From the NCBI RefSeq assembly GCF_014202695.1, contig NZ_JACHHH010000004.1:1-64000 (forward strand): a stretch of DNA of 64,000 nucleotides. Reading direction: 5' to 3'. Position 1 is the first letter of the stretch; every line of letters starts with the position of its first letter. The DNA is from Oribacterium sinus. Its GTDB lineage: Bacteria; Bacillota; Clostridia; Lachnospirales; Lachnospiraceae. Shown here piece by piece: positions 23,905 through 62,162 of this stretch. The position numbers and the translations under genes were made by a program. Below the pieces are notes generated by a model. That model was not told where the DNA came from. It searched no databases and was given only the letters and a program-made list of their open reading frames with translations.

Positions 23905-24395
23905 CAATATAGGTCTGAATGGGGGTATGCTCTCGCTAGCCTTGCTCTGCGTAGAGAAGGACTGCACTCGCTATAAGAAGACGCTCTGATACAGTGTGGG
24001 CTATAATTAGGGCACGCTCTCGCTAACCTCGCCTTGACTGAGCAGTGGTTTATGTTAACCACTGCTCACTTTGCTTTGCAAAGCAACTTCCTTCGGAAGT
24101 TGGTCTGCATCAGGACGACTTTTCTAATGAAAAGTCTGTCCTTACAGCACTAACTTTAAGCTTCGCTTTAGCTCGCTTTCAGTAAGAACCGGCGGGCTCA
24201 GATTGCCCTTATTATAGCCCCACACTGCATCATTCGCTTCAATTATTGATTTTACAGTCCTCCACATCGCTGGCCTTTCACAAGTATTAGGCTCAGACTA
24301 TCCCATATTCAGACCTATATTGCCGAAAATGTCTTTACTCTTAACAAGTGGCGCAGGCGAAGTTAGCGAGAGCGTGCCCCGGGTTTAGACCTATT
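23905..24395. repeat. Nested hairpin repeat element, copy A
   Basis: This lies between convergent genes. The outer arms CAATATAGGTCTGAAT (23905-23920) and their complement (24307-24322) are perfect over 16 bp. Inner arms lie at about 23987-24008 and 24210-24231, and smaller hairpins sit between them (for example GAGCAGTGGTT/AACCACTGCTC at about 24040-24067). It carries the two family core boxes, CGCTAACCTCGCC and GGCGGGCTCAGATTGCCC. A further inverted arm with GGCGAAGTTAGCGAGAG follows at 24346-24395. No ORF of substance is present in this gap. Confidence 0.85.
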
Positions 24396-24439
24396 AATGC
24401 ATATACAAAAGCTTGATTATTTTACAACTCCTTTTTTAC

Positions 24440-25339
24440 TTACTCACAAAACCTGCAGAACACGGACTTTTGCTGTTCTTTCCACTCCGGATCCAGGTTA
24501 TCGCTAATCTCTGCAAATTCATCCAAACTAAGAGTCTCTCCCCGCACATTTTCCGGAAAGGAAAGGGCGGAAAGTACGCTTTTAATCACTTCCTTATCTA
24601 TGCCTAAACCGGCGGAAAGGGCGTTTACCAAGGTCTTCCGTCTTTGCATAAAGGAAGCTTTAATGGTCTTAAAGAGATATTCCGGATTCTCACATTCCAC
24701 AGGGGATTCCTTATAAACAGAGAGGTGAATCACCATGGAACTTACCTTGGGGCGGGGAATAAAGCAGTGGGGAGGAACCTCCTGTACAATCTCCGGCTTA
24801 CTGTAGTACTGCACCGCAAGAGATAAAGCGCCGTAATCCTTGCTACCGGGACCGGCCTGCATTCTCTCCGCCACCTCCTTTTGTACCATGACGGTGATGG
24901 AGCTAAGAGGAAGCTTCTTTTCCAGTAAGGAGAGTAAAATGGGGGTGGTAATATAGTAGGGAAGATTCGCTACTACCTTTACGGAATGAAAGTCAGGGTA
25001 TTCCTTTAAAAGCTCCGTAAAGTCCACCTTTAAAACATCCTGATGCAGGAGGTGAAAATTTTCTTTACCGGCAAGGTTCTCCTCTAAAATAGGAATCAGC
25101 TTATCATCAATTTCAATGGCAATCACCTGCCCTGCATGCTCGCAAAGGGCTTCTGTTAAGGTTCCGATTCCGGGACCAATCTCAATCACCAGATCCTCTT
25201 TCTGAATCTTGGCGTGAGAAATGATATGATCCAAGACAGATGCATCAATTAAAAAATTTTGACCGAATTGCTTCTTAAACTGGAAGTTTGTCCTTTGCAA
25301 TACGGCAATGGTCTCTTTGGAATCCACAAGCTTTGCCAT
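24440..25339 (-). CDS. rsmA: 16S rRNA dimethyladenosine transferase RsmA (KsgA)
   Basis: This enzyme dimethylates two adjacent adenosines in helix 45 of 16S rRNA; its loss gives kasugamycin resistance. It has 299 residues. It has FGQNFLID, the SAM loop EIGPGIGTLTEALC, the catalytic NLPYYITTP motif and a C-terminal SFMQRRKTLVNAL segment. The ATG has GGGGGG upstream. It is transcribed against replication and faces the 830-residue gene across repeat copy A. Confidence 0.96.
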   Translation of the reverse strand: MAKLVDSKETIAVLQRTNFQFKKQFGQNFLIDASVLDHIISHAKIQKEDLVIEIGPGIGTLTEALCEHAGQVIAIEIDDKLIPILEENLAGKENFHLLHQDVLKVDFTELLKEYPDFHSVKVVANLPYYITTPILLSLLEKKLPLSSITVMVQKEVAERMQAGPGSKDYGALSLAVQYYSKPEIVQEVPPHCFIPRPKVSSMVIHLSVYKESPVECENPEYLFKTIKASFMQRRKTLVNALSAGLGIDKEVIKSVLSALSFPENVRGETLSLDEFAEISDNLDPEWKEQQKSVFCRFCE

Positions 25340-25431
25340 CTTAATCCCCCCTCAAATTTTCTTTGTAAAATCTTGCCATATTTTCCTTAAGAAAGCAAGA
25401 AGAGAGACCATTCCTTTTTTGCGGAGAGAAA

Positions 25432-25465
25432 TTGACGAAGAATAGCATATATAATACAATGTATT
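25432..25465 (+). promoter_or_regulatory. Promoter and palindromic operator of the RelBE-like operon
   Basis: -35 TTGACG (25432-25437), a 17-nt spacer and -10 TACAAT (25455-25460). The perfect palindrome AATACA-A-TGTATT (25453-25465) covers the -10. That is the usual place for autorepression by the antitoxin or the toxin-antitoxin complex. Repression is inferred. Confidence 0.6.
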
Positions 25466-25486
25466 ACAGATGAAAGGAGGGATGGA

Positions 25487-25708
25487 ATGACAATCTCTTT
25501 AAGACTAAATGAGGCAGACTCTATACTGTTTAAAAAATATGCGGAATTGCATGGGATTAGCGTATCGGAATTGCTTAGACGCTCAGTGATTGAACATATT
25601 GAAGAGGAGTATGATTTGCAGGCTTATGAGGAAGCCATAGCGGAATATCATGAAAATCCCATCACCTACTCCCTTGATGAGGTGGAGAAAGAGCTGGGCT
25701 TAGGATGA
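25487..25708 (+). CDS. RelB-like ribbon-helix-helix antitoxin
   Basis: The 73-residue acidic protein starts MTISLRLNEADSILFKKYAE. This is a ribbon-helix-helix pattern (short beta strand, then two helices with ISVSELLRRSVIEHI), followed by an acidic tail expected to wrap the toxin. AAAGGAGG lies upstream. Its stop overlaps the next gene by 4 nt, the classic antitoxin-toxin arrangement. It is assigned by pattern and context rather than by a close match. Confidence 0.85.
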   Translation: MTISLRLNEADSILFKKYAELHGISVSELLRRSVIEHIEEEYDLQAYEEAIAEYHENPITYSLDEVEKELGLG

Positions 25709-25989
25709 GTTTTAGGGTTGTATTTTCTGATAAAGCATTAAAGCAGATGAAAAAGCTGGACAAGTACACAGCTTCTCTTATCGTTGCTTGGCTTAGAAAG
25801 AACTTAGAAGGCTGTGAAAATCCCAGGAAACATGGAAAGGGCTTAACAGCTAATAGAAGCGGACAATGGAGATATAGGGTAGGAGATTATAGAATTATTG
25901 CGGAAATCCAAGAAGATAAAGTAATTGTTCTGGTATTGGGAATAGGGCATAGAAGGGAAATTTATCAAAATGATATCTATGGAAAATAA
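25705..25989 (+). CDS. RelE/ParE-family toxin
   Basis: The 94-residue basic protein is of the RelE superfamily, usually a ribosome-dependent mRNase. It begins FRVVFSDKALKQMKKLDKYTASLIVAWL, has the central strand pair GQWRYRVGDYRIIAEI and ends VIVLVLGIGHRREIYQ. The Arg/Tyr-rich strands and C-terminal His-Arg-Arg-Glu-Ile-Tyr are standard for active RelE. It is coupled to its antitoxin (4-nt overlap) and overlaps the next gene by about 20 nt. Confidence 0.88.
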   Translation: MSFRVVFSDKALKQMKKLDKYTASLIVAWLRKNLEGCENPRKHGKGLTANRSGQWRYRVGDYRIIAEIQEDKVIVLVLGIGHRREIYQNDIYGK

Positions 25990-26503
25990 ATTGAGCCTAA
26001 AGCTACAGGATAGGGAATTTCCCTTTGAATATACTGACCATGACAGAGAAATTGTCCGGGGTATTGTCTTTGATGAAGAGAGGAATTTCTATTTTGTGAG
26101 AATTCATAGGGATGATTCTTTCGGAAAAGCCACCTTGATCGAAACTTCCGGCGGCGGAGTGGAAAAGGGAGAAAGCTTGGAGATGGCTATAAAAAGAGAG
26201 CTAAAGGAAGAGTTGGGAGCTGAGGTGGAAATCCTCCGAGAAATAGGGATAGTCAGTGACTATTACAACCTTATTCATAGGCATAATATGAATCATTATT
26301 TTTTGTGCAAAGTCCGTTCCTTTGGGGAAAAGAACTTGATGCCCTACGAAATCCGAGATTTTCATATGGAAACCTTGAAGCTGTCCTATGAAGAAGCCAT
26401 AAAGGAATATGAAAAATGCAGTAATACAAAGTTGGGGAGGCTGATTGCCCAAAGGGAAGTTCCGGTTTTGGAAGAGGTAAAGAAGATGCTTTTAATGAAT
26501 TAG
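25970..26503 (+). CDS. NUDIX hydrolase
   Basis: The 177-residue protein belongs to the Nudix family, which cleaves nucleoside diphosphates linked to another moiety; the substrate is not readable. The Nudix box is complete: G62-x5-E68-x7-REL-x-EE-x-G83 (GVEKGESLEMAIKRELKEELG). The start is uncertain: ATG at 25970 or at 25979, both inside the 3' end of the RelE-like gene. Either way the frame overlaps the toxin, which implies coupled translation and makes it a possible third member of the module. Confidence 0.88.
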   Translation: MISMENKLSLKLQDREFPFEYTDHDREIVRGIVFDEERNFYFVRIHRDDSFGKATLIETSGGGVEKGESLEMAIKRELKEELGAEVEILREIGIVSDYYNLIHRHNMNHYFLCKVRSFGEKNLMPYEIRDFHMETLKLSYEEAIKEYEKCSNTKLGRLIAQREVPVLEEVKKMLLMN

Positions 26504-26545
26504 ACTTTTTAAAATTGTAAAACATTTGCCAAATAGAAAATAAGT

Positions 26546-26587
26546 AATATAATAGAAAGTAGGGATTTCCCTACTTTCTATTATATT
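26546..26587. repeat. 42-bp perfect palindrome
   Basis: Two 20-bp arms (26546-26565 and 26568-26587) are exactly complementary, with only TT between them. The arm begins AATATAATAGAAAGTAGGGA. It follows the NUDIX stop by 42 nt and ends 55 nt before the next gene. It could end transcription in both directions, although no T tract follows on plus beyond the arm itself. Confidence 0.9.
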
Positions 26588-26656
26588 GAAAGAAGAAGTA
26601 TAAAAAAGCATATTTAGATTTAGAACTATATTTATGAATTAATGGGGGTGCTTTGG

Positions 26657-26929
26657 ATGATGAATCAAACATTTATTGATAATGCAAAGGTTATGGCAAA
26701 AGGACAAGTAACAATTCCAAAGGATATTAGAGAAATTTTAGGGGTTTCTTGCGGTGATAGAATTACATTTGTTGTGGAAAATGGAAGTGTAAGACTTATT
26801 AATTCTGCAGTTTATGCTATGCAGATACTCCAGGCTCAAATGGAAGGAGAAGCTGAACAGAATGATTTATCTACAGATGAAGCTATTATGGATCTTGTAA
26901 AAGAAGTTCGTGCAGAAAGTGTAGAATAA
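26657..26929 (+). CDS. AbrB/SpoVT-type antitoxin (MazE/VapB-like)
   Basis: This swapped-hairpin DNA-binding antitoxin has about 90 residues. The AbrB core reads AKGQVTIPKDIREILGVSCGDRITFVVENGSVRLIN, and an acidic C-terminal tail follows for toxin binding. The frame extends to an ATG at 26642, but GGGGGTG (26644-26650) is the RBS for the ATG pair at 26657/26660. It overlaps the PIN gene by one base, supporting a co-translated toxin-antitoxin pair. Confidence 0.88.
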   Translation: MMNQTFIDNAKVMAKGQVTIPKDIREILGVSCGDRITFVVENGSVRLINSAVYAMQILQAQMEGEAEQNDLSTDEAIMDLVKEVRAESVE

Positions 26930-27333
26930 TGAAAATTCTTATTGATACAAATATATTAATATCTGCTGCATTAAGTAGCAAGGGCGTTCCCTATCAAGCA
27001 TTTGTAAAAGCGGTTAGTTATCCAAATCATGGATTACTCTGTGAACAAAACATTGACGAAATGCGTCGTATTTTTAATAGGAAATTTCCTCATAAAATTC
27101 AGGCGTTAGAGGGTTTTCTATCTCTAGCATTATTAACATTGGAGGTGGTATCCATTCCTATTGAGGAAAGTGAGGTGGAAGTCAAAATCCGGGATGTAAA
27201 TGACCGACCAATACTTAGAGCGGCTATTCATGCCGGAGTAGATATACTATTGACAGGTGATAAAGACTTTTTGGAGTCCGGGATTTTAAATCCTAAGATT
27301 ATAACGGCGGCAGAATTTGTAAAAGAATTTTAG
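26929..27333 (+). CDS. PIN-domain toxin (VapC-like ribonuclease)
   Basis: The 134-residue PIN protein is of the type annotated as the toxin component of toxin-antitoxin systems. The acidic metal-binding residues of the PIN fold are visible: Asp6 in ILIDTNIL, a Glu in the NIDEMRRIF helix, Asp in DVNDRPILRAA and Asp in LLTGDKDF. It probably cleaves tRNA or other RNA when free of the AbrB-type partner. It directly follows the antitoxin with a 1-nt overlap. Confidence 0.88.
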   Translation: MKILIDTNILISAALSSKGVPYQAFVKAVSYPNHGLLCEQNIDEMRRIFNRKFPHKIQALEGFLSLALLTLEVVSIPIEESEVEVKIRDVNDRPILRAAIHAGVDILLTGDKDFLESGILNPKIITAAEFVKEF

Positions 27334-27504
27334 TGTATAGAGAAGAAATGGGAAAAGTATAGCTTTGTTTGCCCAATAAAAAGAAAAATAGCGAGATGGA
27401 AACTTCAAAAATATTAAAAAAATATCTGTCTAAGACTACTTTCCCTTTCTTTTTCAATCCGTTATACTATAAAAGATATATTGTGGCTATTTATGGAGGA
27501 ATTT

Positions 27505-28506
27505 ATGTTTTCCTTGATTTCAAATGATATCGGAATCGACTTGGGAACATCCAGTATTCTGATTTATATAAAGGGTAGAGGGGTTGTACTGAAAGAGCCC
27601 TCTGTCATTGCGGTAAATAAAGAAAATGATGAAGTGGTAGCCTTTGGTGAGGATGCCCGTCTTATGCTGGGAAGAACCCCGGACAATATTTCCGCTGTTC
27701 GCCCTCTTCGCCAAGGTGTGATTTCCAATTACACCAGAACAGAGCAGATGCTGAAGTACTTTATCAATAAGGCGGTGGGCAGAAGAACTTTAAGAAAGCC
27801 CAGAATCTGCGTTTGTATTCCCAGCGGAGCAACGGAGGTGGAGAAGAAGGCAGTACAGGATGCAGCCAGCCATGCAGGAGCCAGAGAGGTAAGCATTATC
27901 GAGGAGCCGGTGGCAGCAGCAATCGGTGCAGGCATCGACATTTACAAGCCCCAGGGAAATATGATTATCGATATCGGCGGAGGAACCTCCGACATTGCAG
28001 TCATTGCCTTAGGAGGTCCGGTGGTTTCCGAATCCATCAAGGTGGCGGGAGATGATTTTGATGAAGCCATTCTTCGCTATATGAGAAAGAAGCATAATCT
28101 TCTAATTGGGGAAAGAACTGCTGAGGAAATGAAGATCAATATTGGTTGTGCCAGCAAGAGACCGGAGAATGTTACCATGGAGGTTCGGGGACGAAACTTG
28201 GTTACCGCCCTGCCAAAGACCGTAGTGGTAAGCTCTGATGAGCTTTTGGATGCTCTCTTAGAGCCGGCAAGCATGATTGTGAATGCGGTACATCACGTCC
28301 TGGAAAGAACTCCGCCGGAGCTTGCGGCGGATATCTATGAGCGGGGAATCGTTATGACCGGAGGAGGAGCCCTGCTTTACGGTTTAGACAAGCTGATGCA
28401 GGAAAAGACAGGAATCACCACCATGCTGGCAGAGGATCCTCTTACAGCGGTGGCTATCGGAACGGGAAAGTCCATTGATTTAAGTAACGATGATGATGAC
28501 TTCTAG
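27505..28506 (+). CDS. mreB: MreB/Mbl-family bacterial actin
   Basis: This actin-like ATPase organises lateral wall synthesis and rod shape. It has 333 residues from the preferred ATG, which has GGAGGA upstream; the frame extends 24 nt further to a TTG. Signatures are IGIDLGTSSILIYIKG (phosphate 1), DIGGGTSDIAVIALGG (phosphate 2) and GIVMTGGGALL (adenosine). No mreC or mreD follows, so it is more like an Mbl or stand-alone copy. Its 3' end overlaps recD2 by 17 nt. Confidence 0.94.
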   Translation: MFSLISNDIGIDLGTSSILIYIKGRGVVLKEPSVIAVNKENDEVVAFGEDARLMLGRTPDNISAVRPLRQGVISNYTRTEQMLKYFINKAVGRRTLRKPRICVCIPSGATEVEKKAVQDAASHAGAREVSIIEEPVAAAIGAGIDIYKPQGNMIIDIGGGTSDIAVIALGGPVVSESIKVAGDDFDEAILRYMRKKHNLLIGERTAEEMKINIGCASKRPENVTMEVRGRNLVTALPKTVVVSSDELLDALLEPASMIVNAVHHVLERTPPELAADIYERGIVMTGGGALLYGLDKLMQEKTGITTMLAEDPLTAVAIGTGKSIDLSNDDDDF

Positions 28507-30769
28507 TCTGGAAGAAATAGAAGGAAATGTATCCCATATCGTTTTTCGCAGCGAGGAAACGGGATACACCGTGTGTAGTATTACGGATAAGGGAGAAGAG
28601 TTCACTTTGGTGGGAAGCTTCTCCCATATTTCTGTGTCGGAAAAAATAAAGGCAAAGGGACGCTGGAAGGAACATCCGGTATACGGCAAGCAGTTCAGTG
28701 TAGAGGAATATCAGCTGGAGGTTCCGGACAGCCTTTTTGGCATTGAACAATATTTGGCTTCCGGGGCCATTAAGGGAATCGGTAAGGCCATTGCCGCCCG
28801 AATCGTAAAAAAATTCAAGGAAGATAGCCTACGGATTATGGAGGAGGAACCGGAGCGTCTTGCGGAAATTCACGGCATTTCCATGCAAAAGGCCATGGAT
28901 ATTGCTACGAACCTTTCAGGGCAACGGGAGCAGCAGGACATTTTCCTCCTCCTACAGGGCTATGGCATCAGCCTGAATCTATCCTATAAGATTTACCAGC
29001 ATTTTCAGGGAGAGACGCTACGGGTTTTACAGGAAAATCCTTATCGCATAGCAGAGGAGCTGGAGGGAGTCGGCTTTAAGAAATGTGATGAGCTGGCAAA
29101 AAAGGTGGGAGTGGAGAAAGAATCCCCCTTCCGTATGCGAGCCGGCATCAACTATACCCTCTTACAGGGAGAGTGGCATGGACATTGCTACCTTCCTTTT
29201 TCGATTTTAAAAAGAGAGGCGGAGCGGATTTTAGAGATGCCTCTGGAGGACTTGGAAGAGCAGCTTCTGGAGCTGCAGTTGCAGGGGAAGGTGAAGGTCA
29301 AGGGGGAAAATGTCTACCGGGCCAGTACCTATTATCGGGAAATGCGGGTGGCTTCCCGTCTTTTACAGTTAAATGTGGAAGAGGAAGAGGCTCATGTGGA
29401 TTCCTGGGAAAAGGCCATAGATAAGCTTTTGGACAGGGAAAAAATCACCCTGGACCCTCTCCAAAGAAAGGCAGTGAGCCTGGCCGCATCCTCCGGTGTT
29501 TTGGTCATTACCGGAGGGCCGGGAACGGGAAAGACAACTACCATCAAAACCATCTTACAGCTCTTTACCGGACAGGGAAAAAGCATTGCTTTGGCCGCCC
29601 CCACCGGAAGAGCGGCGAAACGAATGGGGGAAGCTACGAACTATCCGGCGAAAACTCTCCACCGGCTCTTGGAATACATGGGGCGGGAGGATCAGGAGCA
29701 GGAGGATCGGGATTTTTCCCTGTTCCAAAGAAATGAAGAAAATCCTCTGGAATATGATGTGCTGATTGTAGACGAAATGAGTATGGTGGATCTTTATCTG
29801 ATGGATGCCCTTCTTCGTGCCGTTCCCGTGGGCTGTCGTTTGATTTTGGTGGGGGACAGTGAGCAGCTTCCCTCTGTGGGAGCGGGAAATGTGTTAAAGG
29901 ACATTATTGCCTCTCAATGCATGAAAACCATTTCCCTAAAGAAGATTTTTAGGCAGGCCATGGAGTCGGATATTGTGGTAAACGCCCATAAAATAAACCA
30001 AGGGATAGAGCCGGATCTTGGGAAGAAATCCAAGGATTTTTTCTTTATCCGGGGGCAGGAGCCGAAGCAGATTCTGGAAAATATCGCCATTTTGATGAAG
30101 GAAAAGCTCCCCAAATATCTTTCCACCGACCCGCTTTCCATTCAGGTAATGTCCCCGCAGAAGAAGGGACTTTTGGGGGTGGAAAATCTGAACCGCTTTT
30201 TGCAGGAACGCTTGAACCCTCCCGGAAAGAACAAGCCGGAATATGAGGGAAGCGGCAACATTTTCCGGCTGGGAGATAAGGTTATGCAAATCAAAAATGA
30301 CTACCAGCTGGCCTGGGAAATTCCCGGAAACTTTAACCTGCCCATAGAAAGCGGAGAAGGAGTTTTTAACGGAGACATCGGAAAGATTACGGAAATCAAT
30401 GCCTATCAAAAGACGGTAACGGTGTTCTTCGAGGAAAAAAAGGTGGTTTATAGCTTTCAGGATTTAGAGAATCTGGAGCTGGCCTATGCCATTACCATTC
30501 ATAAGTCACAGGGATCGGAGTATCCGGCGGTGTTGCTTCCCATGTATCCCGGTCCGAAAATGCTGATGAGCAGAAATATTCTTTACACCGCCATTACCCG
30601 GGCCAAGTCCTGTGTCTGCCTTTTGGGGCATCCCAAGGTCTTTCTGGAAATGCTTCACAACGAGCAGGAGCTAAAACGCTACTCCGGTTTGGCTCAGCAA
30701 TTACAGACTATCGGAGAAAGCTTTTCCGCATCTTTTTCAATGGATAGCGGAAATCCATTTGCGGAATAG
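28490..30769 (+). CDS. recD2: ATP-dependent RecD2-type DNA helicase
   Basis: This is a SF1B 5'-3' helicase of the RecD2 type, acting without RecBC in repair and replication restart. It has 759 residues. The N-terminal OB/HhH region is about 1-200. Walker A is in GGPGTGKTTTIKTIL, then AAPTGRAAKRM, Walker B DEMSMVDLYLM, GDSEQLPSVGAG, and the C-terminal motif VI YTAITRAK. ITIHKSQGSEYP is also present. The start overlaps the MreB-type gene by 17 nt. Confidence 0.95.
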   Translation: MMMTSSLEEIEGNVSHIVFRSEETGYTVCSITDKGEEFTLVGSFSHISVSEKIKAKGRWKEHPVYGKQFSVEEYQLEVPDSLFGIEQYLASGAIKGIGKAIAARIVKKFKEDSLRIMEEEPERLAEIHGISMQKAMDIATNLSGQREQQDIFLLLQGYGISLNLSYKIYQHFQGETLRVLQENPYRIAEELEGVGFKKCDELAKKVGVEKESPFRMRAGINYTLLQGEWHGHCYLPFSILKREAERILEMPLEDLEEQLLELQLQGKVKVKGENVYRASTYYREMRVASRLLQLNVEEEEAHVDSWEKAIDKLLDREKITLDPLQRKAVSLAASSGVLVITGGPGTGKTTTIKTILQLFTGQGKSIALAAPTGRAAKRMGEATNYPAKTLHRLLEYMGREDQEQEDRDFSLFQRNEENPLEYDVLIVDEMSMVDLYLMDALLRAVPVGCRLILVGDSEQLPSVGAGNVLKDIIASQCMKTISLKKIFRQAMESDIVVNAHKINQGIEPDLGKKSKDFFFIRGQEPKQILENIAILMKEKLPKYLSTDPLSIQVMSPQKKGLLGVENLNRFLQERLNPPGKNKPEYEGSGNIFRLGDKVMQIKNDYQLAWEIPGNFNLPIESGEGVFNGDIGKITEINAYQKTVTVFFEEKKVVYSFQDLENLELAYAITIHKSQGSEYPAVLLPMYPGPKMLMSRNILYTAITRAKSCVCLLGHPKVFLEMLHNEQELKRYSGLAQQLQTIGESFSASFSMDSGNPFAE

Positions 30770-32635: not shown

Positions 32636-32675
32636 TAAAAGGAGCTGTAGAAATCAATAAGCTGAAGCGACAGAT

Positions 32676-32807
32676 GCAGTATAGGTATGAAAGAGAGCAA
32701 TCTGAGCCCGCCGGTACTTGCGAAAAACAAAGGTACTGTAGTTTTTCGCTTAGTACCGATGCAGGGCGAGGTTAGCGGGAGCGTGCTCGATTTCATACCT
32801 ATACTGC
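32676..32807. repeat. Nested hairpin repeat element, copy B
   Basis: The 17-bp perfect arms GCAGTATAGGTATGAAA (32676-32692) and complement (32791-32807) enclose the family boxes GCAATCTGAGCCCG and GGCGAGGTTAGCGGGAGC. At the centre is a GGTACTTGCGAAAAA / TTTTTCGCTTAGTACC hairpin. It lies between the convergent comF and LysR genes. Confidence 0.85.
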
Positions 32808-32842
32808 GTCTAAGCGTATCTTAGCAATGCATACAGCCCTTT

Positions 32843-38709: not shown

Positions 38710-40335
38710 ATGGAACAAAATAAGGACAACAAAAAATCAATAGGGAAAATGCTCCTTCCCTATCTTTTATTTTTTATGCTGGGATTATGCTGCCTGTTTC
38801 GCTTGTCCTATCTTTTTCTGGTCAGCAACTGGGAAGAGCTTACGGTAGATGAGATTCTCTTTCATGTTTTCGCCCCTATGGGGGGAGCCAACGGGCATCT
38901 GGTACAGCTTTTTATTATCACAGCCTTGGCCCCTGCCATTCTTTTATGGCTATCCCTCTCTGTATTTTATTATTTTTTCTACCAAAAGCAAAAGATACGA
39001 ATTTTCCTTCCCAAAATCAAGAAGGCCTTCCTGCCTCTATGCGGATTTTTCAGCATTTTCCTTGTGGCAGTGACCATTGCAGAAGCTTGGGACGGGATAT
39101 CTCTTGGTTCCTTTTTAAGCTCTCAGTTTCAATCCTCCAAGTTTATTGAAGAGCATTATGTGGATCCGAAGAATGTGGACTTGAAATTTCCGGAGAAGAA
39201 AAGAAATCTTATCTATATTTATATGGAGTCCACAGAGCTTACCTTTATGGACAAGGAACACGGCGGAGACTTTCCGGAGAATCTTCTGCCCGAGCTGATG
39301 GCCTTGGGGGAAGAGGGAGAGGACTTTGCCGGAGAGGGTGAGAAAAGGAATGGGGGAATTGCCCTTCCCGGAGCCACCTGGACCATGGGAGCGATTTTTG
39401 GAGAGAGCACCGGTCTTCCTTTGAAAATCTCCATTGAGCAAAATTCTATGGATAGCCAGAAGCATTTTTTCCCTTCTGTTACCGCCCTGGGAGATATTTT
39501 GGAGGAGGAAGGTTATAATCAAAAATTCCTCTTAGGCTCTGTAGGCTATTTTGGCGGAAGAGAGCTTTTCATGGAGGATCACGGAAATGTAGCCGTGGAG
39601 GATTTTTCCTATTGGAAAAGAAAGGGAAAATTTCCCAGAAACTATTGGGTGAACTGGGGCTTTGAGGATGAGAAACTTTTTCTGTACGCGAAGGAGGAAT
39701 TGGAAAATCTGGGGAAGGCGGAACAACCCTTTAATTTAACTCTGCTTACAGTGGATACTCATTTTCCGGATGGTTATGTGTGCAGACTTTGTGAAAGAAA
39801 ACACCCGAAAAATCAGTATGCGGATGTGTACCAATGTACCTCCCGACAGGTATCCGACTTTGTTCATTGGATACAGCAGCAGCCTTTTTATGAAAATACG
39901 ACCATAGTTATTTCCGGGGATCACCCCACAATGGATCATGATTTTTGTAATGATGTGGAAAAAAGCTATCAAAGAAAGGTTTTCACCACTTATCTAAATG
40001 CCGTTCCCGGGGTGGAAGAAAAAAAATATCGGGAATACAGTACTTTTGATGATTTTCCCACCACTTTGGCAGCCATGGGCGTAGAAATTCCGGGGGATAA
40101 GTTGGGGCTGGGCAGAAATTTATTTTCCAAAACCCCAACTCTTATAGAAGAGTATGGTCTGAAGCACGTGAAAAAAGAACTGGAAAAACGTTCCGACTTT
40201 ATGATTTCTCTGGGACAGATTGATAAAGAATCCGCCTTTATTCAGAAAGAAGAAAAGAAGAAAGAAAAAGAGGAGAAGAAAAAGAAGGAGGTGGAGGAGC
40301 AAAGCAAAAAAATAAAAGAAACGCAGAGGAAGTGA
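38710..40335 (+). CDS. LTA synthase/phosphoglycerol transferase-like sulfatase-fold protein
   Basis: The 541-residue protein has three N-terminal transmembrane helices (about 13-35, 65-92 and 105-125) and an outer alkaline-phosphatase/sulfatase domain. LIYIYMESTEL gives the first metal residue, PGATWTMGAIFG should hold the nucleophile threonine, LLTVDTHFPDGY and VISGDHPTMDHDF the other metal ligands. The PGATWT form is closer to MdoB/OpgB-type enzymes than to LtaS. Substrate transfer of glycerol phosphate is inferred. A highly charged Lys/Glu tail ends KIKETQRK. Its stop lies inside repeat copy C. Confidence 0.85.
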   Translation: MEQNKDNKKSIGKMLLPYLLFFMLGLCCLFRLSYLFLVSNWEELTVDEILFHVFAPMGGANGHLVQLFIITALAPAILLWLSLSVFYYFFYQKQKIRIFLPKIKKAFLPLCGFFSIFLVAVTIAEAWDGISLGSFLSSQFQSSKFIEEHYVDPKNVDLKFPEKKRNLIYIYMESTELTFMDKEHGGDFPENLLPELMALGEEGEDFAGEGEKRNGGIALPGATWTMGAIFGESTGLPLKISIEQNSMDSQKHFFPSVTALGDILEEEGYNQKFLLGSVGYFGGRELFMEDHGNVAVEDFSYWKRKGKFPRNYWVNWGFEDEKLFLYAKEELENLGKAEQPFNLTLLTVDTHFPDGYVCRLCERKHPKNQYADVYQCTSRQVSDFVHWIQQQPFYENTTIVISGDHPTMDHDFCNDVEKSYQRKVFTTYLNAVPGVEEKKYREYSTFDDFPTTLAAMGVEIPGDKLGLGRNLFSKTPTLIEEYGLKHVKKELEKRSDFMISLGQIDKESAFIQKEEKKKEKEEKKKKEVEEQSKKIKETQRK

Positions 40336-40545
40336 TGAAGGGTAAGCATTATCCGAAATCGCTTTCGCGCAGTATAGCTTGTAGCAGGGGCACGCTCCCG
40401 CTAACCTCGCCTCGCAGGGGTTCTAAGCTTTTAAAAAACAAAAGCCAAGAACCCGCGGGCTCAGATTGCCCCTTATTACAAGCTATACTGCGCGAAAGCT
40501 GATGGATACTCGCCTTGCTAACATCACTTCCTCTGTGTTTCTTTT
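40314..40545. repeat. Nested hairpin repeat element, copy C
   Basis: The 23-bp perfect arms lie at 40361-40383 and 40477-40499 (core GCGCAGTATAGCTTGTA). Complementarity continues outward to 40314-40337 versus 40522-40545 (23 of 24 bases). The left arm therefore includes the 3' end and stop codon of the LTA-synthase-like gene. The family boxes GCACGCTCCCGCTAACCTC and CGGGCTCAGATTGCCCC lie inside. Confidence 0.9.
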
Positions 40546-43026: not shown

Positions 43027-43119
43027 GAACCCTCCTTTCATTAGTCTTAAAAAATATAACAAATGCAACCTTTTAAATATATCATAAAGGAAGAAAAAAG
43101 AACAGGGAGAAGAGGAAAA

Positions 43120-43341
43120 GGAAGAAAGGGGCTGTAATAAAATCGGATTTTGCTGCAAGTTTTGGTGGCATAGGTCTAAAAGGGGGTAATCTGAGCCCCT
43201 CAGTACTTACTGAAAGCGAGCAAGGCGATGCTTGAAGTTAGTACTGCTAGGAGGCGAGGTTAGCGAGAGCGTGCCCCCAACTAGACCTATGCCACCAAAA
43301 CTTATTTATCCTTTTCCATTTTATTACAGCCCCTTTCTTCC
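43120..43341. repeat. Nested hairpin repeat element, copy D
   Basis: Two perfect inverted segments: 24 bp at 43120-43143 versus 43318-43341, and 22 bp (with GGTGGCATAGGTCTA) at 43156-43177 versus 43282-43303. The family boxes GTAATCTGAGCCCC and GGCGAGGTTAGCGAGAGC flank a central AGTACTTACTGAAAGCGAG / AGTTAGTACT hairpin. This copy lies between divergent genes, unlike the other four. Confidence 0.9.
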
Positions 43342-43504
43342 TTAGAAAAAATTATAAAAATCGTAAAAAGATAAGATGCTCTTTTCTTGTATCTCCTGCG
43401 GAAAGCATGATATTATGGGGGATATTGAAAATCCTGATAGGAGGTTTTCGTGAAGGTCGACATGAAGGCTTTCGGGAAGGCCGATAGAAAGCAAAAGGAG
43501 AAGG

Positions 43505-44428
43505 ATGGAAAGAAGAGAGTGGAAAAGGGAAGCCAGCAACGGGCTTGGGAAAATTTATAATGTTCTGTGGCAGGAGGAAAGCCTTGAAAAGAAAGGGATT
43601 CTTTTTGTTCTCCACGGGATGCAGGGGCATATCGGAAAATATCGTTACCTTTTTGAGTATATGGCGAAGCAGGGCTATGTGGTTTGCGGCATGGATATGC
43701 AGGGGCATGGAAAAAGTGCCAATATCCCCGGCTACTTTGGAGATAATTCCGGTTGGGAAAGTATGATTCATGATATTCACAGAAGCCTCTTGCAGATCAA
43801 GAAATGGTTTCCGAATCTGCCGGTTTTTCTCTTCGGCCATTCCATGGGTTCCTTCCTGGCAAGAGACTATGCGGCAAGCTATGGGGCGGACTTAAAGGGC
43901 TTACTGCTTTCCGGAACGGCAGGGGGAAGTCCTGTACTGCTTCCGGTGCAGGGCTACATTGCTGTTCAAAAGAAGCTTCGGGGAGCTAAGGATGATGCGC
44001 TAAAGGAAAGCATTCTCCTGGCGAAGTATTTCAACAGACATATTCCGAATCCCAAGAGTCTATCAGATTGGATTTGCACTAAGGAAGAGGTGAGTCAGGC
44101 AAATGGTCGGGATCCTTTGGCAGTGGGCTTTACTCTGGGAGCTTATGCCGACCTCTTGGCTGCTTTGGTAAGGGTTAATGAATATGCGGAAATCAAAAAG
44201 CTGAAGGATATTCCCTGCTTTATTTTTTCCGGCGGTGCGGATCCGGTGGGAGAATACGGCAAGGGTCCGGCAAGTCTTTATGCTATGCTAAAGCAACTGG
44301 GAAATCCCAAGCTTAAGCTTCATATTTTCCCCAAACTACGGCATGAAGTCTTGAATGAAGAGGTACGTCCGATTCTTTTACAGGAAATGACGGCGTTTAT
44401 GGAAGAGGTAAGACAAGAACGTAACTAG
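43505..44428 (+). CDS. Alpha/beta hydrolase (monoacylglycerol-lipase-like)
   Basis: The 307-residue serine hydrolase belongs to the Hydrolase_4/lysophospholipase group. VLHGMQGHIGKYRYL provides the oxyanion loop, GHSMGSF the nucleophile Ser113, FSGGADPVG the aspartate (about 247), and LRHEVLNE the histidine (about 280). The triad is complete. There is no signal peptide, so it acts in the cytoplasm, probably on lipid or ester substrates. AAAGGAG precedes the ATG. Confidence 0.9.
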   Translation: MERREWKREASNGLGKIYNVLWQEESLEKKGILFVLHGMQGHIGKYRYLFEYMAKQGYVVCGMDMQGHGKSANIPGYFGDNSGWESMIHDIHRSLLQIKKWFPNLPVFLFGHSMGSFLARDYAASYGADLKGLLLSGTAGGSPVLLPVQGYIAVQKKLRGAKDDALKESILLAKYFNRHIPNPKSLSDWICTKEEVSQANGRDPLAVGFTLGAYADLLAALVRVNEYAEIKKLKDIPCFIFSGGADPVGEYGKGPASLYAMLKQLGNPKLKLHIFPKLRHEVLNEEVRPILLQEMTAFMEEVRQERN

Positions 44429-51599: not shown

Positions 51600-51658
51600 T
51601 GTGGATAAGTCCTCTTAAAATCCCATTTTTGGGAAAATGTACAAAGGACTTATCCACA
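51600..51658. other. Inverted pair of perfect DnaA boxes (outside oriC)
   Basis: TGTGGATAAGTCC (51600-51612) and GGACTTATCCACA (51646-51658) are exact complements. Each contains a consensus DnaA box (TGTGGATAA / TTATCCACA). Between them is a small TCCCA/TGGGA hairpin. The 405-nt gap between the ABC ATPase and the next gene otherwise holds only AT-rich sequence and an unsupported 62-codon frame. Confidence 0.8.
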
Positions 51659-55907: not shown

Positions 55908-55933
55908 GCATTAAGGGATTGTATTATGTTTTT

Positions 55934-56928: not shown

Positions 56929-56970
56929 TTAGGAATTTAAGGGAAATCGAGGAAGGAGAGCATTTGGAAG

Positions 56971-58551
56971 ATGGGAAGAGATGAAGAGACAAAGGCATGG
57001 GAAGGGACTCCGAATGCTACAGCTGAAGACGGGAAAGAGCAGGAACCGGTTATTGAAATGCGGGACATTGTGAAGCGCTTTGGAGATTTCGTGGCCAATG
57101 ACCATGTGCAATTAAAGCTTCATAAGGGAGAAGTTCTTGCGATTTTAGGGGAAAATGGAGCAGGAAAGTCTACCCTTATGAATATTCTCTACGGCATGCT
57201 TCGCCCAAGCTCCGGAGAAATTCTGGTTCGTGGACAAAAGGTAGAGATGGACAGCCCGGAAAAGGCTATTTCCTTGGGAATCGGCATGGTGCATCAGCAC
57301 TTTATGCTGATTCCTCCCTTTACCGTTGCGGAAAATATTATTCTGGGGGCGGAGCCCATGCAGGGGCTTACCGTGGACTTAAACGGAGCGAAGAAAAGGA
57401 TTCGGGAGCTTTCCGAACAGTACCATTTGATGGTGGATGTGGATGCCAAGGTGGAAGACATCAGCGTAGGCATGCAGCAAAGAGTGGAGATTTTGAAGGT
57501 TCTGTATCGGGGTGCGGACATTTTGATTTTAGACGAGCCTACCGCCTCCCTTACTCCCCAGGAAATTGATGAGTTAATGGAAATTATTTCCCATTTGACC
57601 AAGGCCGGAAAGTCCATCCTGATTATTACCCACAAATTAAAGGAAATCAAATGCATTGCCCATAAATGTATGATTATCCGACAGGGAAAGTACATTGATA
57701 CCGTGGATGTATGTTCCTGCTCGGAGGACGATTTGGCAGCCATGATGGTGGGAAGAAAAGTGAATCGAGTAGTGGAAAAGAAGGCTCAGGAGCCGGGGGA
57801 AGTGGTACTTTCCGTGAAAAATCTCCATGCCAAGGACTATAGAGGGGTGGAAATCCTAAAGGGACTAAATCTGGAGGTTCGGGCGGGAGAAATCCTGGGA
57901 CTTGCCGGCATTGACGGAAACGGGCAGTCTGAGCTTGTGGAAATACTAACCGGACTGGCTCATGCTACAGAGGGAGAAATTCAGCTTTTAGGAAAGGATA
58001 TTTCCTGCAAAAGCCCAAGAGAAATCTTTGATGCAGGTCTTTCCAGCATTCCGGAGGATCGGCAGAAGCATGGACTGGTACTGGACTTCTCCGTAGCGGA
58101 AAACCTGATTTTACAAAATTACGGGGAAGCGCCCTACTCTAAGGGAGGAATTTTACAGAAGAAGGCTATAGAAGAGCATGCCTCCAGGATGATTGAGAAA
58201 TTTGACATTCGTCCGAAGGGCTGCGAAAGCCGTGCAGCAGGACAGCTTTCCGGCGGAAATCAGCAGAAGGTGATTATTGCCAGAGAGGTGGAAAATGACA
58301 AGTCGCTTCTCATTGCCTTTAACCCCACCAGAGGTTTGGATGTGGGAGCCATTGAGTTTGTGCATAAATATCTGGTGGAACAAAGAAATAAGGGCAGGGG
58401 AATTCTCTTGATTTCCTTTGAGCTGGAAGAGGTTATGGGCTTGTCCGATAGAATCGGCGTTATTTTCTCCGGAAATATTCAGAAAAGCTTCGCCGGAAAT
58501 GAGGCGGATGAGTATACCTTAGGACTATATATGGCAGGAGGAAAGGAGTAA
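56971..58551 (+). CDS. Nucleoside-type ABC importer, double ATP-binding protein
   Basis: The 526-residue protein has two ABC domains, like NupO/YufO/BmpB and sugar importers. Domain 1: Walker A GENGAGKST, HQHFMLIPPFTVAENI, signature ISVGMQQRVEI, Walker B LILDEPTASLTP. Domain 2: a degenerate Walker A GIDGNGQSE, signature LSGGNQQKVIIAREV and an altered Walker B (LLIAFNPTRGLD). Asymmetry of this kind is normal in the family. It follows yjjW by 42 nt and precedes two permease genes. Confidence 0.94.
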   Translation: MGRDEETKAWEGTPNATAEDGKEQEPVIEMRDIVKRFGDFVANDHVQLKLHKGEVLAILGENGAGKSTLMNILYGMLRPSSGEILVRGQKVEMDSPEKAISLGIGMVHQHFMLIPPFTVAENIILGAEPMQGLTVDLNGAKKRIRELSEQYHLMVDVDAKVEDISVGMQQRVEILKVLYRGADILILDEPTASLTPQEIDELMEIISHLTKAGKSILIITHKLKEIKCIAHKCMIIRQGKYIDTVDVCSCSEDDLAAMMVGRKVNRVVEKKAQEPGEVVLSVKNLHAKDYRGVEILKGLNLEVRAGEILGLAGIDGNGQSELVEILTGLAHATEGEIQLLGKDISCKSPREIFDAGLSSIPEDRQKHGLVLDFSVAENLILQNYGEAPYSKGGILQKKAIEEHASRMIEKFDIRPKGCESRAAGQLSGGNQQKVIIAREVENDKSLLIAFNPTRGLDVGAIEFVHKYLVEQRNKGRGILLISFELEEVMGLSDRIGVIFSGNIQKSFAGNEADEYTLGLYMAGGKE

Positions 58552-58553
58552 GT

Positions 58554-59627
58554 ATGAAAGAGAAAATATTAAAGAGTTCCTTGCTTTACACCCTTCTTTC
58601 CATCGCCATCGGCTTTTTGGTAGGGGCTGTTTTATTGCAGGCCATCGGGGTTTCCCCGGTGAAGGCCTACGGAAAATTGTATCAGGGTGTTTTTGGTAAG
58701 CCTAAGTTTATGTTTTACAGCATCATTTACGGAGCACCCCTGATTTTCACAGGTCTGTCCGTTGCTTTCTCCTTCCGTACCGGAATTTTTAATATCGGCG
58801 CAGAGGGTCAGTTTGTGATGGGCAGTTTGGCAGCTGTTGTGGTGGGCATTTTATTTCCTTTGCCTGCGCCCCTCCATGTGCTTCTCTGCCTTGTGGTAGC
58901 GGCTCTTGCCGGCGCTTTTTGGGGCTTTTTGGTAGGCCTTCTCAAGGTGAAAAAGGGTATCAATGAGGTGCTTTCCTATATTATGTTTAACTGGATTGCT
59001 TTCTATTTTTCCAACTATGTGGTGAATTTAAAGACGATTCATACCGACCAGGGAGCAGAGGCCAGTAAGAATATTTTAGCGACCGCCTCCATGAAGATTC
59101 CCCAGGCTTTGATTCCCTTTGCGGGGGGAGCGGAGCTTCATGCCGGAGTGCCTTTGGCTTTGCTCTTTGCCTTTCTGATCTGGTTCATTCTGAGCAAAAC
59201 CACTTTTGGCTATCAGCTTCGGGCGGTGGGCTATTCCCGCAGTGCTGCGGAGTATGGGGGAATCAATTCCAAGAGAGTTTTCCTTTTGTCTATGTCCTTA
59301 TCCGGTGTTCTGGCAGGTCTTGGGGGAGCAGTGCAAATCCTGGGTATGTCTGAACGTGTCTCCATGTTTGCCGCCCAGGAGGGCTATGGCTTCCAGGGCA
59401 TTACGGTGGCGTTGATTGGAGGAACCCATCCCCTTGGCTGCATTTTCTCCGGTCTTTTCTATGGCGCCATGAAGTATGGCGGAAACAAATTAACAACGGT
59501 GGATGTTCCTGCGGAAGTGGTAAGCATTATCATGGGAACCATCATCATTTTCATCGCCATCACGCCGGTGATTAAAAATCTGGTACAGAGAGGGTTCCAA
59601 AAGAAGGGAGAAAGCCATGCTGAATGA
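58554..59627 (+). CDS. Nucleoside-type ABC importer permease 1
   Basis: The 357-residue permease is of the branched-chain/BPD_transp_2 type, with about eight to nine helices. Marks are GAPLIFTGLSVAFSFRTGIFNIGAEGQFVMG and GYQLRAVGYSRSAAEYGGIN, which match NupP-like subunits of nucleoside importers. It starts 2 nt after the ATPase stop and overlaps the second permease by 11 nt. Confidence 0.93.
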   Translation: MKEKILKSSLLYTLLSIAIGFLVGAVLLQAIGVSPVKAYGKLYQGVFGKPKFMFYSIIYGAPLIFTGLSVAFSFRTGIFNIGAEGQFVMGSLAAVVVGILFPLPAPLHVLLCLVVAALAGAFWGFLVGLLKVKKGINEVLSYIMFNWIAFYFSNYVVNLKTIHTDQGAEASKNILATASMKIPQALIPFAGGAELHAGVPLALLFAFLIWFILSKTTFGYQLRAVGYSRSAAEYGGINSKRVFLLSMSLSGVLAGLGGAVQILGMSERVSMFAAQEGYGFQGITVALIGGTHPLGCIFSGLFYGAMKYGGNKLTTVDVPAEVVSIIMGTIIIFIAITPVIKNLVQRGFQKKGESHAE

Positions 59628-60543
59628 TCTGGGATTACTGTTAAATGCGGTTTTGATTTCTACGCCACCCCTCCTCTTGGCAGGGCTTGGTTCTTGTTGC
59701 TCCGAGCGTTCCGGTGTGGTAAATATCGGAATCGAAGGAATGATGACTCTGGGCGCCTTTGTAGGAGCCTGTGTAGCCTATTTTACCGGAAACGGATGGC
59801 TGGGATTTTTTGCGGGAGGCTGTGCCGGAGCTCTTCTTGGTTTGATTCATGCGGTGGTTTGTGTGTCCCTTCATGCGGATCAAACCATTGCGGGAACGGC
59901 CATTAACTTTGTCGGACCGGGCTTTGCAGTTTTCCTTTGTAAGGCGATTTTTGACAATTCTTCAGACACACCGGCTTTGGATTTATCCGCAAAGCTTCCG
60001 AAGATGTTTGAAGGGAAGTTTGCCTCAGGTTCCTTCCTGTACAATGTGGTAAGCACCTATTCCGTGGCTTATCTTAGCTTTCTTTTGGTGCTTTTGCTTT
60101 GGTTTATTTTCTTTAAAACCCGTTACGGTATGCGGCTCCGGGCAGCAGGAGAACACCCCTGGGCCTGTGAAACCTTGGGAATCAATGTCTATAAGGTTCG
60201 TTACATTGCGGTGATTCTTTCCGGCTTTTTGTCCGGCCTGGGAGGAGCCTTTGTGACCTTGGCTACCGTATCCCAGTTCCGCCCTTCCGTTATTGTGGGA
60301 CAGGGATTTATCGCCATTGCGGCGGTGATTTTCGGAAAATTTACGCCCCAGGGAACCTTCCTGGGCTGCCTGATTTTCGGACTGTGTAACGGTCTTCGTG
60401 CATTGCTTGGATCCGGAAATATGGTATCTCCTCACTTGCTCTCCATGATTCCCTATGTGGTAACCATTCTGACCTTGGTATTCTTTGTAGGAGCAGGACA
60501 TGTGCCAAAGGCAAACGGCAGAATCTTTGTTCGGACGAGATAA
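59617..60543 (+). CDS. Nucleoside-type ABC importer permease 2
   Basis: The 308-residue permease is the NupQ-like partner. It has about eight helices, with STPPLLLAGLGSCCSERSGVVNIGIEGMMTLGAF and TRYGMRLRAAGEHPWACETLGIN as the typical cytoplasmic motifs. It overlaps permease 1 by 11 nt, so they are translated together as a heterodimer. It ends the importer gene set. Confidence 0.93.
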   Translation: MLNDLGLLLNAVLISTPPLLLAGLGSCCSERSGVVNIGIEGMMTLGAFVGACVAYFTGNGWLGFFAGGCAGALLGLIHAVVCVSLHADQTIAGTAINFVGPGFAVFLCKAIFDNSSDTPALDLSAKLPKMFEGKFASGSFLYNVVSTYSVAYLSFLLVLLLWFIFFKTRYGMRLRAAGEHPWACETLGINVYKVRYIAVILSGFLSGLGGAFVTLATVSQFRPSVIVGQGFIAIAAVIFGKFTPQGTFLGCLIFGLCNGLRALLGSGNMVSPHLLSMIPYVVTILTLVFFVGAGHVPKANGRIFVRTR

Positions 60544-60645
60544 GGAAGAGTAGCGAGTATAAAGACAACGATGAAAGTAAAACAACCGGTCAGGGCAATA
60601 ACTGCGGTTAAAGCAAAGATAGTAGAAGAGTAGGGAAGTAAAGAA

Positions 60646-61821
60646 ATGAATTGGAAAGATTTATGGAATAAAAAATACCTGATGATTTCAGTATATGTAT
60701 TGCTGACGGCTCTCCTGTATCATCTGGGAAGCCGTTTGGTGGATCATCTGGAAAGGATTCCCTCATTATGGACAAGGCACTTTTCCTGGCTGTCCCAAGT
60801 GACTTCTCCTTTGCTCTTGGGATTTGCTTTGGCGTATTTGCTGAGTCCTCTCTGTACCATACTGGAGAGGGCCTTAGGGAAAATTCCTCTTTTTCAGAAG
60901 AAAGAGAAATTACGGAAAAATCTGGGCATTCTGCTTTGCTATCTCTTGATATTACTTTTTCTGGTACTGCTTGCCTCTCTTTTTGTATCCGTACTGACCA
61001 AAAATATTCAGCTGATTCAGGGAGAAGATTTTGCTAAGGGATTGGAGAGCGTACTGCTTCTTTTAAAAAGTTTTTATGAGGATTTGAACCAAAGAGTTTC
61101 AGAGATTCCTATTGCGGGAAATGATTTGCAGGAGGGAATACGGACTTTTTTAGCAAAGCTTTTAAGCTTTGTACAAAACCTGGGCAGTAATTTCATATCC
61201 TCCGTGGGAAATATGGGAAGCCTGATAGGCACTCTGCTCTTTGGTATTATTTTTTCTATTTATTTTCTGGCAGATGGGGTAAAGATTGCGCTATATTGGG
61301 AAAGAATTTTTCGCCTGATCTTGGGGGAAAAGAGAGTTTTAGCCTTTCGCGGATTTCTAAAGGATGCGGATAGAGCCTTTTCCGGTTATATCCGTGGACA
61401 GATGATTGACGGCATCATTATGGCTATTTTGGTTAGTTTTAGCCTAAGTCTTATAGGGGTACGCTATGCCGTAGCCATAGGAATTCTTACCGGAATCGGA
61501 AATCTAATACCCTATGTGGGTCCCTTTGTGGCCTATGGAACAACCATTTTAGTGTGTACTCTTTACGGGGATTTTTCTAAATTATTACCGGCTGTCTTAG
61601 CCCTGTTTGCGATTCAGACCGTTGATGGAAACGTGATTAACCCCAGACTGCTTTCCAACAGTATCGATATCCATCCTCTACTGGTAATGATCTCTTTAAT
61701 TATCGGCGGCGCAGTGGGGGGAGTTTTGGGAATCTTCCTGGCAGCCCCCATCGCCGGTTTGATTAAGTTACAGGTGGATCGGATGATAGAAAGAGGGGAA
61801 GCAAAGAAGGCGAATTCATAA
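60646..61821 (+). CDS. AI-2E (PerM) family transporter
   Basis: The 391-residue polytopic protein has seven to eight helices and a large soluble segment in the middle. Family marks are LGFALAYLLSPL, FSGYIRGQMIDGIIMAIL, GIGNLIPYVGPFVAYG and QTVDGNVINPRLLSNSIDIHPLLVMISLIIGG. Members export diverse small molecules or ions; autoinducer-2 export should not be assumed. It lies 102 nt after the nucleoside permease with no terminator seen between. Confidence 0.92.
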   Translation: MNWKDLWNKKYLMISVYVLLTALLYHLGSRLVDHLERIPSLWTRHFSWLSQVTSPLLLGFALAYLLSPLCTILERALGKIPLFQKKEKLRKNLGILLCYLLILLFLVLLASLFVSVLTKNIQLIQGEDFAKGLESVLLLLKSFYEDLNQRVSEIPIAGNDLQEGIRTFLAKLLSFVQNLGSNFISSVGNMGSLIGTLLFGIIFSIYFLADGVKIALYWERIFRLILGEKRVLAFRGFLKDADRAFSGYIRGQMIDGIIMAILVSFSLSLIGVRYAVAIGILTGIGNLIPYVGPFVAYGTTILVCTLYGDFSKLLPAVLALFAIQTVDGNVINPRLLSNSIDIHPLLVMISLIIGGAVGGVLGIFLAAPIAGLIKLQVDRMIERGEAKKANS

Positions 61822-61831
61822 ATTTACGGTT

Positions 61832-62162
61832 TTCTAATTAGGATAGGGATGAAATTCGTGGCACGCTTTCGCTAGCCTAATCCAATGTATTGAAGGACTG
61901 TACTTATCATAAGGATGCGCTCAAATGCAGTATGGGTCTATAATCGTGGCACGCTCCCGCTAACTTCGCCTTCGTAACAGTACTAACTTCAAGCTTCGCT
62001 TTGCTCGCTTTCAGTAAGTACTGACGGGCTCAGATTGCCCCTATTATAGACCCATACTGCATTATTCGCTTCACATATTGATTTTTACAGTTCTTCACTT
62101 CATCAGATTTTGCAAGTATCGGGCTCAGATTACCACTCGTTTCATCCCTATCCTATAGAAAA
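61832..62162. repeat. Nested hairpin repeat element, copy E
   Basis: The outer arms (AGGATAGGGATGAAA, about 61840-61854, against about 62141-62155) enclose perfect 20-bp inner arms with ATGCAGTATGGGTCTATAAT (61925-61944 and 62043-62062). At the centre is AGTACTAACTTCAAGC / GCTTTCAGTAAGTACT. It carries two sets of family boxes, one in each nested layer, and lies between the convergent AI-2E and DJ-1 genes. No gene is seen in this 393-nt gap. Confidence 0.88.

Follow-up and report, generated by a model that had tools for sequence, protein, structure and literature searches.

Five palindromic elements in the window

The window analysed here is a stretch of 64,000 nucleotides on contig C4 of the Oribacterium sinus genome (G000; 2.73 Mb in 25 contigs). 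It contains five copies (A to E) of a palindromic element, at the positions given in a preliminary description of this DNA. Eight of the ten scanned proteins adjoining the copies have Pfam matches, which include an rRNA adenine dimethylase, a LysR regulator, a sulfatase, a HAD hydrolase, a band 7 protein, an AI-2E transporter and a DJ-1/PfpI protein. The 23-nt left box of the element, GGCACGCTCTCGCTAACCTCGCC, occurs six times in the window with up to three mismatches (shuffle mean 0.00), and the right box, with no or one mismatch, is present in all five copies.

Copy A (23905–24327, forward strand) consists of two layers. Its outer boxes lie at 23924–23946 (left) and about 24289–24303 (right), its inner boxes at 24011–24033 and 24194–24208, and an optional multi-hairpin module is found 3' of the inner left box, at approximately 24034–24146, all on the forward strand. 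The copy is abutted by a half element on the reverse strand (24340–24400, limits by eye; left box 24356–24378). Copy B (32672–32811, reverse strand) has one layer, with the left box at 32765–32787 and the right box at 32695–32709. Copy C (40314–40545, forward strand; boxes 40389–40411 and 40457–40471) has inner arms of 23 bp (40361–40383 and 40477–40499) and outermost arms (40314–40337 and 40522–40545) that are complementary, by eye, at 23 of 24 positions; the stop codon of the ORF at 38710–40335 sits in the left outermost arm. Copy D (43118–43343, reverse strand; left box 43253–43275, right box 43184–43198) is closed by perfect outermost arms of 26 bp (43118–43143 and 43318–43343). Copy E (61832–62162, forward strand) again has two layers, with outer boxes at 61860–61882 and 62121–62135, inner boxes at 61948–61970 and 62026–62040 (forward strand), and inner arms at 61924–61951 and 62036–62063. 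As for the layering first described, A and E turn out to have an outer layer with boxes of its own.

The arms had been reported to differ between copies and to be perfectly complementary within each over 16–24 bp. The ungapped arms extend over 23 bp in C and 26 bp in D, and those of B and E carry three and two mismatches, respectively, over 28 columns. A central hairpin is indeed present in A, D and E, but it is not limited to them: all five copies carry one, in three sequence types. Of the two copies that were folded as single strands, E (forward strand) and D (reverse strand) reached z-scores of −10.5 and −13.4, respectively, against shuffled sequences.

Organization and nesting of the element

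The apical hairpin occupies the centre of the element. The next structure outward is a stem like CGGTACT/AGTACCG, flanked by ACTAA and AAGT, which is surrounded by the left box CACGCTCYCGCTAACCTCGCC and the right box GGGCTCAGATTGCC. Farther out, the boxes are followed by a GGGG/CCCC clamp, then by inner arms at least about 16 bp long and finally by the outer arms; in some copies the optional multi-hairpin module is present after the left box. When 50 diverse copies were aligned, the boxes proved almost invariant and the arms variable, and 22 of the 28 paired positions of the RNAalifold consensus displayed two-sided changes. Left box, apical hairpin and right box form a nearly invariant core of about 90 nt. 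According to the preliminary description, the boxes of the two sides are not complementary and make the element asymmetric; in the consensus fold, however, they pair in part, columns 47–49 with 113–115, through their ends. Two copies (L085 and L123) change both box sides together.

Two sets of units were analysed, one of 99 units from G000 that excludes the window copies and one of 141 Oribacterium units in which copies A to D entered as L016–L019 where the filters were passed and E is excluded. A locus was dropped if no right box lay within 260 nt or if it duplicated another exactly. Also dropped were L036, L040, L041, L054 and L058, five of the 37 stretches of the left-box pattern scan described below, each being a single match in another organism, in one case a Clostridiales MAG.

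The elements of Oribacterium are recursively nested. A single layer on each side is found in 70 of the 99 units, and the other 29 have additional layers on one side or both, with maxima of three layers on the left and six on the right; in nested copies the left boxes are spaced by about 88 nt and the right boxes by about 97 nt. At L142, L113 and L119+ the arms of each layer match their own partner, and at L161, L119−, L117 and the outermost layer of L148 the match of layer to partner is not one to one. Layers of the same locus are more alike than layers of other loci, both on the left (similarity 0.786 versus 0.670; five within-locus pairs) and on the right (0.817 versus 0.714; 25 within-locus pairs), which, with few pairs, points to local duplication.

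Distribution and turnover

The genome is close to that of Oribacterium parvum ACB1 (G009), the aligning flanks being mostly 66–87% identical. A scan with the left-box pattern retrieved at least 37 stretches, and 32 among the matches listed were from O. parvum ACB1. With up to three mismatches, the left box was found 152 times in G000, 44 times in O. parvum and once in G024, and was absent from the other 38 genomes searched; the reversed control gave no match.

The preliminary description had suggested building a covariance model, and the one built from the 50 diverse copies (R1; E≤0.001, at most 150 candidates scored per genome) did recover many further copies, in the same genome as well as in related ones. 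Under this limit on candidates it matched 139 times in G000, 76 times in O. parvum and 131 times in G048, a genome of another genus of the family; further matches were obtained in G024 and G043 (21 each), G042 (15), G007 (12), G005 and G001 (4 each). Altogether 14 of 61 genomes match, G000 included, and all of them are among the 37 genomes of the same family, with no match in the 24 genomes of other families. In a wider draw of 250 genomes of the family, analysed with strict filters and 13 candidates each, 90 genomes, or 89 of 249 genera, match (G000 and O. parvum included). The distant copies that were inspected keep motifs like CGCTCTCGCT, GTAGCGGTACTAAG and CTAAGTACCGACG together with copy-specific complementary arms. 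The elements therefore constitute a palindromic repeat family that is found across the Lachnospiraceae and is nested in Oribacterium.

Ten loci were compared by eye with O. parvum. The element is present in both species at five of them (L098, L119, L127, L128 and L138), often with other arms or as another type in O. parvum, and at the other five (L081, L082, L090, L154 and L163) the O. parvum stretch inspected has no element. The set of copies thus turns over between species. L154 is a degenerate copy. None of the ten loci offered a clean empty site, and target-site duplications were not seen by eye. Young copies are 80–91% identical between the two species, and one G000 copy matches many O. 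parvum loci.

Location relative to genes

In Oribacterium the elements lie mostly at the 3' ends of genes. Convergent ORFs flank four of the five window copies, as originally reported, but this preponderance does not extend to the genome as a whole, in which 40 of the 82 callable units (99 examined) have convergent, 39 codirectional and three divergent neighbours; these are raw counts from an ORF heuristic, uncorrected for a genome-wide baseline. The right neighbour of copy D is ambiguous, the ORFs at 43352–43840 (reverse strand) and 43505–44428 (forward strand) overlapping each other. In G048, 11 of 29 callable units (39 examined) have convergent, 13 codirectional and five divergent neighbours.

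At L090 the last codons of a gene are contained in the left arm and a 16-bp inverted copy lies on the right; the O. parvum orthologue of this gene has neither the element nor that gene end. Copy C of the window overlaps the end of the ORF at 38710–40335 in much the same manner. Gene ends with an inverted copy were found at 8 of 106 (score of at least 11) against 1.5 expected, and, this excess being modest, a broad coding origin of the arms was set aside. T-tracts following the outermost stems were seen by eye in young copies and in bare hairpins. A simple terminator scan, which allows loops of 3–8 only, called none over copy D.

Complementarity of the arms

The arms complement their own partner. 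Genome-wide, complementarity averages 25.5 between the arms of one copy and 11.3 between arms of different copies, so that an arm fits its own partner far better than the arms of other copies. The own partner was best or tied in 66 of the 99 units, the remaining 33 belonging mostly to subfamilies with shared arms, and in 33 of 37, 11 of 11 and 8 of 8 units of other genera. Within 0–30 nt of the box, 124 of 141 units score at least 14, where 15 are expected; at 240–320 nt none of 137 does. Together with the model searches and the alignment, these values support the initial view that the elements form a dispersed family, modular and built of nested hairpins, whose arms covary.

Under selection on an RNA, G.U pairs are tolerated on the functional strand and A.C pairs are not. 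Isolated mismatches in the arms of the 141 Oribacterium units comprise 36 G.U, 43 A.C and 63 others (in distinct contexts, 32 G.U versus 42 A.C; p 0.30), which means that there is no RNA-type bias in this best-sampled set; a cruder count over the 99 units gave 71 G.U and 115 A.C. In the control, 20 tRNAs, there were 35 G.U and no A.C, although the tRNA finder itself favours G.U. Other genomes lean in opposite directions, G048 with 5 G.U and no A.C, G024 with 6 and 14, and G043 with 1 and 12, the latter partly at one conserved A.C position; mismatch bias is therefore not uniform across the family. The arms are not GC-rich (0.37 versus 0.44 in the window), and thus display no sign of selection for stable stems.

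Arms and cores can also be compared. Among 31 pairs of Oribacterium units with identical cores, 26 have an arm similarity of half or more and five fall below half; the latter applies to one of five such pairs in G048. Arm similarity declines as core similarity declines, and, taken with the 26 pairs of similar arms, this suggests that the whole element usually travels together. The cores of L049, L050 and L065 are identical over about 87 nt, and that of L064 is 98.9% identical, but the four sit in dissimilar, self-complementary arm sets. It is hard to picture how arms could diverge by stepwise compensation while nothing changes in the core, not even in the variable apical loop, and such cases are better explained by insertion, by conversion of the core between loci or by copying of arms from local sequence.

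Origin and maintenance of the palindromes

The preliminary description left a choice between selection on structure and arm-to-arm conversion. Both have still to be weighed: the Oribacterium mismatches and the identical cores favour copying at the DNA level, but the three other genomes are mixed. We tentatively prefer DNA-level copying, and give somewhat less than an even chance to a reading in which the element is a palindromic repeat at the level of DNA, with a core that spreads or undergoes conversion and with local arms whose complementarity is preserved mainly by template switching from one arm to the other. The repeats would then be non-coding, dispersed elements of Lachnospiraceae that act at the level of DNA. 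From the identical cores inside dissimilar arms we infer that the core is the spreading unit, which either inserts or passes by gene conversion from one copy already in place to another. The arms would be local, and their complementarity would come mainly from template switches that occur at the hairpin while it is replicated, so that one arm is copied from the other. Homogenization of arms by template switching is an established process according to PMC8604942 (see also PMC1803023). Such copying might also extend the palindrome, occasionally as far as the end of a gene. A layer would form when sequence inside the hairpin is duplicated locally and then undergoes the same copying between arms. 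The outermost GGGGCTGTA...TACAGCCCC-TTTT stems may in addition terminate transcription in both directions, and the tolerance of the repeats at 3' ends would then be explained.

The main rival is selection on a transcribed RNA, namely a 3'-end or terminator element in which pairing is maintained, the arms drift by compensatory changes and the boxes represent a conserved internal-loop motif bound by protein or RNA. The two-sided changes at 22 of 28 consensus pairs, the conservation of the core across genera, the raw neighbour counts given above (40 convergent, 39 codirectional and three divergent among 82), the G.U mismatches of G048 and the T-tracts ending the outermost stems of young copies are all consistent with it. 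However, the best-sampled set has no G.U excess, G043 and G024 lean the opposite way, the GC content of the arms is low, dissimilar arms surround identical cores and no copy matches Rfam at the gathering score; we consider this explanation somewhat unlikely. RNA structure is usually proven by covariation, and the family provides hundreds of natural copies in which covariation may stem from DNA copying instead. It could therefore be used to test how far covariation misleads.

A further possibility, which we regard as unlikely, is a selfish DNA, present family-wide, whose replicating unit is the centre of a hairpin. The core of about 90 nt would jump or convert from palindrome to palindrome, template switching by the host would rebuild and extend the arms from local sequence so that the ends are made anew at each site, and re-entry would give rise to concentric layers.

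The core might also move as a cassette and enter the loops of hairpins that already existed, terminators for example, in which case the arms would simply be the target hairpins. Identical cores in dissimilar arms and nesting at the same internal place agree with this, as do coreless stand-alone hairpins resembling the outermost arms at 8 of the 19 tip sites shown. However, the coreless hairpins at L171, L175 and L184 are clearly deletion remnants, the arms of many copies are recognizably variants of one consensus, and no matching hairpin was seen at the five loci where O. parvum is without the element, all of which makes a cassette of this kind quite unlikely.

Comparison with described repeats

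Very unlikely is an ordinary REP/MITE, that is a non-autonomous element with fixed terminal repeats that is moved in trans by a transposase and whose arms diverge by drift: the similarity of young copies between species, the matches of a single G000 copy to many O. parvum loci, the recurrent ends GGGGCTGTAAAAAATC and a GTAG that 52 of the 141 units have ahead of the apical stem would fit, but drift alone does not produce covarying arms, target duplications were not seen by eye, the GTAG is internal and in 37% rather than terminal and in more than 90%, and the Y1 transposase loci carry no element motif. The preliminary description had stated that transposases and reverse transcriptases are absent; the search covered Y1 (IS200/RAYT-type) transposases, which number none on contig C4, two elsewhere in G000 and four in O. 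parvum, and the absence of the motif from the 3.4 kb inspected around the six genes led us to reject a Y1 parent. No long autonomous element ending in the same tips was seen at 19 sites inspected over 420 nt from the tip, L176 and L180 not being closed within the stretch. Ends are shared within the young subfamily, and several other copies have ends of their own.

In agreement with the preliminary description, the family could not be assigned a name. Rfam gave nothing at the gathering score over the copies, and a search of seven loci at E≤0.5 returned mir-308 (L018) and ctRNA_p42d (L155), both far below their gathering scores. No description of this widespread Lachnospiraceae repeat family, which forms natural nested palindromes of several hundred bases, was found in searches of the open-access literature. 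GTAG-REPs, as portrayed in the main text of PMC3733652, are similarly dispersed, palindromic, located 3' of genes and present in many copies per genome, and part of our copies have a GTAG-like tetranucleotide before the apical stem. However, an unpaired terminal GTAG characterizes more than 90% of the members of most GTAG-REP families in that text, whereas the Oribacterium GTAG is internal, inside the arms; the stems described there are short, mostly 6–9 bp, whereas arms here span 23–28 columns in B to E and are followed by further layers. A RAYT transposase gene flanked by the repeats, as in GTAG-REP/REPIN systems, was not found in G000 and O. parvum, and here the arms covary copy by copy and the layers nest. 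The main text of PMC3733652 makes no mention of Firmicutes, Clostridi, Roseburia, Eubacterium, Lachnospir or Butyrivibrio. GTAG is present in 31 of 40 G048 matches.

Bacterial MITEs such as ERIC/RU and BOX are short, non-coding, dispersed, palindromic and modular, and the elements described here resemble them in these respects. They differ in that the centre rather than the ends is conserved, that dissimilar arms surround identical centres and that modules are concentric rather than in tandem. Integron attC sites are imperfect hairpins with conserved ends and a variable middle that keeps pairing; by this description the likeness lies in a variable part that still pairs, while the layout is reversed here, with a conserved centre. 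Quasipalindromes corrected by template switching offer a parallel to the proposed copying of one arm from the other, which makes the arms alike, but PMC8604942 describes this as a mutational process that acts on inverted repeats of yeast genes rather than as the maintenance of a dispersed family. Carriage by phages was rejected: a 16-base core pattern matched seven viral stretches, and the six inspected lacked the other half and had one shared context, so that the matches were taken as chance. A blastn search of plasmids with one G048 core gave no match.

SbcCD and long hairpins

In Escherichia coli a 246-bp palindrome forms a hairpin that is cleaved by the SbcCD nuclease, and PMC3315005 states that such cleavage is detected only if the palindrome is artificial and exceeds natural ones in length. 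Of 17 genomes of the genus Oribacterium, 14 have an SbcD above the cut-off, together with strong SbcC matches (E 2.5e-38 or better); the curated SbcC cut-off was passed by none of these 14 and by one of 14 controls. SbcC and SbcD are both missing from G000, O. parvum and G001. Loss of SbcCD was rejected as a general cause, because SbcD is present in G048, with its 131 copies, and in G043 and G042, and because of a sampling of long hairpins of any family (score of at least 20): the genus has 15 in 407 kb without SbcCD versus seven in 440 kb with it, and other genera one in 220 kb and none in 80 kb, respectively. Within Oribacterium, absence of SbcCD may permit nesting, perhaps after a single loss. 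G004, in which SbcCD is present, has three such long hairpins in 20 kb. Nesting was seen in G000 and O. parvum, both without SbcCD.

Hairpin nuclease genes in the genus

The hairpin nuclease SbcCD (subunits SbcC and SbcD) was not detected in the whole genomes of three of the 17 members of the genus, namely Oribacterium sinus GCF_014202695.1, O. parvum ACB1 and a further genome, G001. In the remaining 14 genomes SbcD was found above the cut-off, accompanied by strong matches to SbcC.

Relatives of the element and other palindromes

A sister form of the element with different boxes is present in O. parvum (L064:6905-7340), at the locus corresponding to the element-bearing O. sinus locus L138; next to it, the multi-hairpin module also occurs on its own. 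Hairpins resembling the outermost arms of the element stand alone, flanked by A- and T-tracts, at eight sites (L172, L174, L177, L178, L181, L182, L187 and L189). Remnants of the next layer are retained at three other sites with arm tips (L171, L175 and L184).

The inverted repeats around TTATCCACA/TGTGGATAA at positions 9678-9771 and 51600-51658 of the window, a motif which we take to match the DnaA-box consensus, fall outside the nested-hairpin family.

G001 possesses its own hairpins of 26-46 bp with short loops (L195, L197, L229, L233 and L235), the arms of which seemingly covary; their consensus, judged by eye, is close to GCAGAAGTGATCCGGCCGATGGCATT. Other palindromes, such as CACCGGGGACGGTTCTCGCC/GGCGAGAACCGTCCCCGGTG, are found in SbcCD-positive relatives (L222, L217 and L218).
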